Assembly (NCBI GenBank): GCA_037200525.1
Contig: JBBCGG010000001.1
Span: 4,084,501-4,148,500 of the forward strand
DNA length: 64,000 nucleotides
Reading direction: 5' to 3'
Source of the DNA: Methylocella sp.
GTDB taxonomy: Bacteria; Pseudomonadota; Alphaproteobacteria; Rhizobiales; Beijerinckiaceae
The notes under the pieces are model-generated. The model saw only the letters and a list, made by a program, of their open reading frames with translations. It was not told the origin of the DNA and did not search any database. Numbering within the stretch: the first letter of the stretch is position 1; each line of letters opens with the position of its first letter. This document shows, piece after piece, positions 18,200 through 20,829 of this stretch. The position numbers and the translations under genes are program-made.

Positions 18200-19084
18200 A
18201 TGACCGAAACGATCAAGGCGAGCGCAGAAGAAAAAGCTCAGGAACAAGCCGAAATCTTGATGCAGGCCCTGCCGCACATGTTGCATTACGACGAAGCGAT
18301 CGTCGTAGTGAAATATGGCGGCCACGCTATGGGCGATGACAAGGTCGCCCGCGACTTTGCCCGCGACATGGTTTTGCTCGAGCAATCCGGCGTCAATCCT
18401 GTCGTCGTGCATGGCGGTGGGCCACAAATCGGCGCCATGCTCAACAAACTCGGCATTAAATCGGGATTTTCCGATGGGTTGCGGATCACCGACAAAGCGA
18501 CGGTCGAGATCGTCGAAATGGTCCTTGCAGGCTCGATCAACAAGCAGATCGTCGGCTTCATCAATGCCGAGGGCGGCCGGGCGATCGGCCTTTGCGGCAA
18601 GGACGGCAATATGGTGATCGCCCGCAAAGCCCCGCCGACCAGCGAAGCGATCGATCTTGGTTTTGTGGGCGAACCTTCCAAGGTCGACACAACCGTGCTC
18701 GACCAGGTGCTCGGCCGCGAACTCATCCCGGTCCTCGCCCCGATCGCGCAGGGCGCCCATGGCGAGACCTTTAACGTCAACGCCGACACCTTCGCCGGCG
18801 CCATTGCGGGAGCCTTGAAAGCCAAAAGGCTGCTGTTCCTGACCGACGTGCCAGGCGTTCTCGACAAGAACAAGACTTTGATCAAGGAATTGCGCGTCAA
18901 TCAGATTCACGCCCTCATCGCCGACGGCACGATCACCGGCGGCATGATCCCCAAAGTGGAGACCTGCATCTACGCCCTGGAGCAAGGCGTCGAAGGCGTC
19001 GTCATTCTCGACGGGAAGACGCCCCATGCCGTGCTGGTCGAGCTTCTGACTGACCTTGGCGCGGGAACGCTGATTACGAGGTGA
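18200..19084 (+). CDS. argB: Acetylglutamate kinase
   Basis: Phosphorylates N-acetylglutamate in arginine synthesis. The 294-residue amino-acid-kinase protein has [22 protein letters not shown], and the C-terminal [10 protein letters not shown] segment. A 4-base GTGA overlap joins it to the following HAD gene. The engB-argB-HAD-dapD order is common in Hyphomicrobiales. Confidence 0.96.
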
Positions 19085-20829
19085 GCAAAACGAACCGCTT
19101 AAAGCCAGACGGCGTCGATTCCGGGGGGGCGGCAAAGGTCGCCGCTCCGGAGGCCGCCGCCTTTACCGGCAAAGATATTTGGGTGTTCGATCTCGACAAT
19201 ACCCTCTATCCGGCGGACAGCGATCTCTGGCCCAAGATCGATGCGCGCATCACCCTGTTTCTGGCGCATCTTTTCGGCCTCGACGGGATGTCGTCGCGCG
19301 CCTTGCAGAAATATTATTATGAACGCTATGGCACGACGTTGCGCGGCCTGATGGAGGAGCATGCGATCAGCGCCGAGGACTATCTCACCTTCACGCATGA
19401 CGTCGACCGGTCCGGCCTTGTTCCCAATCACTCGCTGGCGACCGCCATCACCGCCCTGCCCGGCCGCAAGCTGATCCTGACCAACGGCTCGCGCGACCAT
19501 GCCCTGCGCACGGCCAAGGCGCTCGGCCTCGACGCGATGTTCGAGGATATTTTCGACATCGTCGCCGCCGATTTCACGCCAAAACCCGAGGCGGCGACAT
19601 ATGAGCGCTTCTTCGAGAAGCACGATGTCGACCCGACGCGTTCCGTGATGTTCGAGGATCTCGCGCGCAATCTCATTGTGCCCCATGCAAGAGGAATGAC
19701 CACAGCCCTCGTCGTGCCAAAATATGGCCAGATGGATCACCGCGAGGCGTTCGAGGTTACGAGTGAAGTCGTCCCCGCCCATATTGACTTCGTGACCAGC
19801 GATCTTGAAGGCTTTCTGGTCAAGATCGTCGCCGACGCCGGGACCGGAAAGCCCGGCTCCGCAAACCGTAGACGTAAACCGCGCCCGGGCGGCGGCAATG
19901 CGGCGTTGAACAGGTCGAGCGAAACTTGTAAGGCCTTCAGCAACTTCCCTTTTATCGAAAGACCAGGACAAATGTCGAAGCAAGACCTCGAAAAGATCAT
20001 CAACGCCGCCTTCGAGGATCGAGCCAATGTCAACGCGCAGACAAAAGGCGAAGTCCGCGACGCCGTGGACGAAGCTCTCAGCCTGCTCGACGCCGGAGAG
20101 CTCCGCGTCGCCGCAAAGATCGAAGGCGTGGAGGGTCCCAAGTCCTGGTTCGTCCACCAATGGTTGAAGAAGGCGGTGCTGCTGTCATTCCGTCTCAACG
20201 ACATGGCTGAGATTTCGGGCGCCCCGAACGGCGCGACCTGGTGGGACAAAGTCCCGTCAAAATTCGCGGGCTGGGGACCAAAGCAACACGCGGCGGCTGG
20301 GTTTCGCTCCGTGCCGAATTGCATCGTGCGGCGCTCCTCCTATATTGCGCCCGGCGTCGTCCTGATGCCCTCCTTCGTGAACCTTGGCGCTTACGTCGAC
20401 AGCAATTCGATGGTCGATACTTGGGTGACGGTCGGCTCCTGCGCTCAGATCGGCAAAAATGTCCATCTCTCGGGCGGCGTCGGCATCGGCGGCGTGCTGG
20501 AGCCTCTCCAGGCCAATCCGACGATCATCGAGGATGATTGCTTCATCGGCGCGCGCTCGGAGATCGTCGAGGGCGTGATCATCGGCCAAGGCTCCGTCGT
20601 CTCGATGGGGACGTTTATTTCCGCCTCAACAAAAATCATCGATCGCGCAACCGGCAAGATCTTCATCGGCTATGTTCCGCCCTATTCTGTCGTGGTTTCC
20701 GGCAATCTGCCCGGCAAACCCCTGCCCGACGGCTCGCCCGGCCCCTCGCTCTATTGCGCCGTCATCGTAAAAACCGTTGATGCGCAGACGCGATCGAAGA
20801 CCGCGATCAATGAATTGCTGAGGGATTGA
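19081..20829 (+). CDS. dapD: HAD-family pyrimidine 5'-nucleotidase fused in frame to DapD
   Basis: One uninterrupted 582-residue frame covers two proteins that are normally separate neighbours. Residues about 30-240 form a HAD phosphatase of the pyrimidine 5'-nucleotidase type, with nucleophile motif DLDNTLYP (Asp37, Asp39), ILTNGSRDH and FEDLARN. A basic linker (about 241-297) follows. From Met298 (ATG at 19972) comes a complete 285-residue DapD, tetrahydrodipicolinate N-succinyltransferase of lysine synthesis, with left-handed beta-helix repeats ([27 protein letters not shown]). An AGGA lies 3 bases before ATG 19972, so internal initiation is possible. The start is GTG at 19081, overlapping argB. 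It is either a true fusion, two cistrons whose intergenic gap happens to be open, or a sequence error; other frames close at 19869 and 19907. Confidence 0.85.

Follow-up and report, generated by a model that had tools for sequence, protein, structure and literature searches.

The window, the whole stretch of DNA analyzed here, comprises 64,000 nucleotides of a Methylocella sp. genome (G000:C1:4084501-4148500). The genome is assembled as one contig of 5,244,354 bases and is 99.81% complete. A single open frame runs along the + strand of the window from a GTG at 19081 to a TGA at 20829, comprising 582 codons with no internal stop, as re-read from the same sequence and not from an independent reading. 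Two enzyme families are recognizable within this frame. Residues 32-211 match the whole TIGR01993 model (pyrimidine 5'-nucleotidase) with 187.3 bits against a curated cut-off of 142.9, and residues 303-581 match nearly the whole TIGR00965 model (DapD) with 384.2 bits against a curated cut-off of 375.4. A Pfam search detected no domain between residues 212 and 301 and otherwise agrees with the TIGRFAM domains. The first-pass annotation had described a HAD-type nucleotidase and DapD in one 582-residue frame, and both domains indeed lie where it placed them.

The frame can be divided into three parts. The first is the gene for a HAD-type pyrimidine 5'-nucleotidase (19081-19830, + strand; TIGR01993 and PF00702), taken here as the part that aligns with homologs, up to residue 250. 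From its family match, the product is predicted to act on pyrimidine nucleoside 5'-monophosphates. The second is a linker of 47 codons (residues 251-297; 19831-19971, + strand), which comprises the former HAD tail and intergenic DNA that is open in the HAD frame. The third is dapD (19972-20829, + strand; TIGR00965), encoding 2,3,4,5-tetrahydropyridine-2,6-dicarboxylate N-succinyltransferase and carrying its own ATG. At the other end of the frame, the HAD gene overlaps its upstream neighbour by 4 nt, start codon on stop codon (GTGA, 19081-19084). We take this upstream gene to be argB, a name given from its sequence alone.

Judged from the genomes compared, argB - HAD nucleotidase - dapD is a common, known gene order in this bacterial group. 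The order and its neighbours match those of two related genomes, G004 and G013, over about 27 kb, and both also have the 4-nt argB-HAD overlap with HAD at the same place. Between window positions 35 and 26950, each of the 24 other open reading frames taken as genes faces one single open reading frame in G013. We detected no second frame break in this interval among open reading frames of at least 90 codons, and one open reading frame (26477-26950) is shorter at its start than its G013 partner. HAD and dapD are not always adjacent within the genus: in G001, a single contig carries them at positions 0.24 and 1.85 Mb.

Two further features of this genome were observed. Matches to G004 and G013 stop at about window position 26950, although the stretches of these genomes continue for about 38 and 44 kb, such that synteny seems to be broken there. 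At 5.24 Mb, the genome also exceeds in size the 14 others of the genus that were searched (2.3-4.5 Mb, some incomplete).

The joined frame is private to the window among the relatives compared. Seventy loci were collected from named genomes and from further members of the genus and family. The junction set was restricted to loci that carry the two genes on the same strand and whose junction is not a duplicate, leaving 37: the window copy (L001) and 36 relatives, among which L003, L015, and L021 have partial DapD matches and L067 a partial HAD match. Loci left out either had one gene not found in the piece or duplicated another junction. An alignment of homologs had been proposed in the first-pass annotation as a check for a stop between the genes, and such a stop is what we find: a HAD stop codon precedes dapD in all 36 relative junctions. 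It falls 3-17 codons past the end of the alignment (residue 246, 249, or 250), and in the four relatives L002, L004, L026, and L030 the distances to dapD are 72, 77, 99, and 104 nt. The relatives' dapD has a separate start, with an ATG exactly at the residue of ATG 19972 in 25 of the 36 and no more than 9 nt away in the other 11.

A joined frame is nevertheless only one stop codon away in many of these genomes. HAD and dapD are in the same frame in 22 of the 36 relatives, and in 18 of these 22 the HAD stop is the sole in-frame stop before dapD, although 16 of those 18 come from joined matches of the family search, which favour in-frame pairs. Thus, with the HAD stop being the only in-frame stop in half of the junctions (18/36), the loss of one stop suffices for a joined frame.

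Wider searches gave the same picture. The family and order searches covered 298 and 297 genomes, respectively, each including the window's own genome and each drawn from a larger group. A stop lies inside every joined relative match listed (18/18 in the family search and 19/19 in the order search), and also in G243, a further partial joined match from the family search (residues 122-582). Among the joined matches listed in both searches, the only one free of stops is that of the window genome. Relatives in which the two genes gave separate matches were individually checked if they were among the 36 junctions. As a test for an evolved fusion, we looked for an open frame kept in relatives, and this was found in none of the 36 junctions and in none of the 18 and 19 listed joined matches.

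The space between the two genes varies among relatives. In L011, an open reading frame of 141 amino acids sits between HAD and dapD (L011:4138-4563); its letters resemble those of an MqsA-type (XRE) antitoxin, which it may encode. Gaps of similar size (862-896 nt) occur in L007, L012, and L022. A 580-nt spacer in L006 (L006:3712-4291) contained no convincing gene when its open reading frames were inspected by eye.

The linker does not read like protein-coding DNA. Its GC content by codon position is 0.53/0.66/0.64, in comparison with 0.62/0.40/0.75 for HAD and 0.59/0.45/0.76 for DapD. The difference between third and second positions is -0.02 in the linker, whereas 414 overlapping pieces of equal length (47 codons), cut from HAD and DapD, have a mean of 0.33 and a minimum of 0.10, none being as low. 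By this measure, no coding signature was found in the linker. Stop-free shuffles of the 141-nt linker (19831-19971) are frequent: 1457 of 5000 shuffles that keep dinucleotide composition are open in the HAD frame, and its openness by itself is therefore unremarkable. The other two frames do contain stops, namely TAG 19869, TAA 19875, and TAA 19929 in frame +2 and TGA 19907 in frame +1. TAG 19869 and TAA 19875 lie 12-15 codons after residue 250, inside the range where the relatives' HAD ends, and if the frame shifted to +1 or +2 near the beginning of the linker, HAD would terminate ahead of dapD.

The linker also contains control-like DNA. A promoter-like element (TTGAAC-N17-TAAGGC, 19906-19934, + strand) aligns with TTGATT-N17-TAACGG before dapD in M. 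tundrae (L004) and G013 (L030), and with TTGCCT-N17-TAACGG in M. silvestris TVC (L002) and G004 (L026). Other relatives have TTGACA-N17-GAAACC or similar before dapD. In a four-way alignment of the window with three close relatives, GCGAA-N3-TGTAA-N-G is invariant while the lengths flanking it vary. Shortly before ATG 19972 lie CGAAAGA (19956-19962) and AGGA (19965-19968), within 19956-19971 on the + strand. The ATG with AGGA in front, described in the first-pass annotation, is present, and most relatives have an ATG at the same residue.

We quantified these motifs in 41 upstream regions, that is, 43 distinct regions minus the window and L025 (a Methylophilaceae MAG). Six patterns were composed after the sequences had been inspected, the window among them, and the relatives share ancestry, so that the figures overstate independence. 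The pattern [TG]TGA..-N17-.AA, one of these post hoc patterns, occurs 20-100 nt before dapD in 17 of the 41 relatives and is absent from 24, in comparison with 0.8 ± 0.9 (maximum 4) in 300 dinucleotide shuffles; the window has a match at -66. Plain TTGA is found before dapD in 24/41 relatives (shuffle mean 11.6, maximum 22), TTGAC in 18/41 (shuffles 4.1), and TTGAC-N18-AA in 10/41 (shuffles 0.2). GAAAG lies no more than 22 nt from the dapD ATG in 9/41 relatives, where simple shuffles predict 0.5; among the 12 genus-level regions, 8 have it. The window fits four of the six patterns; the two that contain TTGAC are absent from it.

The element stays with dapD even when HAD does not. In L033, HAD is about 1.6 kb from dapD, yet the promoter-like element still precedes dapD, as expected of dapD's own promoter. 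A strict sigma-70 scan (TTGACA-N16/18-TATAAT) of positions 18000-21500 returned no promoters, and Rfam gave no match at gathering scores for positions 17000-24000. In our reading, the linker DNA is probably the promoter and translation start region of dapD. The earlier suggestion that the joining part is translated intergenic DNA agrees with this, given the stop in every homologous junction, the missing coding bias, and the promoter-like block common to relatives.

Our preferred reading, to which we assign a probability of about 0.87, is that this sequence alone lacks the HAD stop, through either a private mutation or a sequencing error, that the joined frame is a chance product, and that dapD keeps its own promoter and ATG. 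HAD would be translated together with the upstream argB-like gene by way of the 4-nt overlap. Its stop would have been lost by a small lineage-private mutation, or would be absent through sequencing error. DapD would be made mainly from its own transcript, with initiation at ATG 19972. Provided that the sequence is right, ribosomes starting at GTG 19081 would run on and produce some HAD-linker-DapD protein of ~62 kDa, which may be a tolerated and presumably harmless by-product. Of the three options left by the first-pass annotation (fusion, read-through, or artefact), a true fusion is not supported, while read-through after a real stop loss and sequencing error are both plausible.

One of the two forms of the preferred reading, a real private stop loss with read-through, has a marginally better than even chance overall. 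A ~62 kDa protein would then exist beside normal DapD and might be incorporated into DapD assemblies, with no role under selection. In its favour, no stop interrupts the frame between GTG 19081 and TGA 20829, and the neighbouring genes look intact. Furthermore, a 9-nt repeat with 13-nt spacing (19860-19868 and 19873-19881) would fit a small frame-changing duplication, as would the longer stretch between residue 250 and the promoter-like element's TTG, which measures 75 nt in the window, in comparison with 62 nt in M. tundrae (L004) and 61 nt in L030. However, the repeat is only 9 nt long with one mismatch and may match by chance, and the length excess is 13 nt relative to one relative and 14 nt relative to the other. 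A small duplication in the linker is thus possible.

The other way to the same frame, a sequencing or assembly error, is somewhat less likely. The true base count would differ between about 19831 and 19869, HAD would end in another frame, and there would be no fused frame at all. The position of TAG 19869 and TAA 19875 in frame +2, within the relatives' range of HAD ends, is consistent with such an error, as is the fact that no relative junction shares the open frame. On the other hand, the assembly is a single, nearly complete contig, and there is no long homopolymer in the linker stretch. The 24 other open reading frames without a frame break reveal no general error load, which leads us to lean slightly toward a real mutation, although one site cannot decide the matter.

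A bolder version of the stop loss is improbable. Here, an internal promoter would lead to nested products, with a long HAD-DapD made from the upstream transcript and a short DapD from the linker promoter, whose mixed assemblies would tether the nucleotidase to lysine synthesis, and the locus would represent a fusion caught at birth.

Least probable is a true, selected bifunctional enzyme that couples a pyrimidine nucleotidase to the synthesis of lysine and peptidoglycan precursors: both domains are complete, exceed their curated cut-offs, and share one frame, but the frame occurs in none of the relatives examined, the linker does not resemble protein-coding sequence and keeps control-like DNA, and HAD and dapD lie far apart in G001. 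Nothing suggests selection for the ~62 kDa product, and a working fusion enzyme is unlikely. The earlier idea that a fusion would link a phosphatase with lysine synthesis is therefore not upheld.

Other long dapD frames were also considered. We examined eight genomes listed with dapD in unusually long open frames, and the long frame was confirmed in two of them, L084 (729 codons) and L086 (668 codons). GC by codon position in the long frame versus dapD is 0.87/0.67/0.72 versus 0.65/0.48/0.96 in L084, and 0.94/0.55/0.76 versus 0.65/0.50/0.97 in L086. These two apparent DapD fusions (L084, 1912-3270; L086, minus strand) were rejected as likely spurious frames in high-GC DNA, their codon-position GC being unlike that of dapD. 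In the other six candidates, also rejected, the stop-to-stop frame around dapD spans only 287-341 codons; HAD is present in five of the six, each time with a HAD stop.

A literature search for dapD together with pyrimidine nucleotidase and argB, and for a bifunctional tetrahydrodipicolinate-haloacid dehalogenase fusion, found no report. The locus appears to be ordinary: both genes and their order are known, and the stop between them is missing through either a private loss or an error. It matters little beyond annotation, where automated gene calling would yield a bifunctional protein. One-off fused frames of this kind should not be taken to show that the nucleotidase and lysine synthesis are functionally linked. 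Should the stop loss be real, the locus would illustrate on a small scale how a fusion can arise in nature while an internal promoter is kept.

Comparison with known systems places both genes within their families. Like other TIGR01993 nucleotidases, the window HAD matches the whole model, but it differs in having no stop after the usual C-terminal end. Similarly, dapD shares with other TIGR00965 members a near-whole-model match and an ATG at the usual start, but it differs in being open in frame with the gene upstream. The window also shares the argB - HAD - dapD order of Methylocella and Methylocapsa relatives, and the promoter-like block before dapD of L002, L004, L026, and L030, whereas these four keep the HAD stop.
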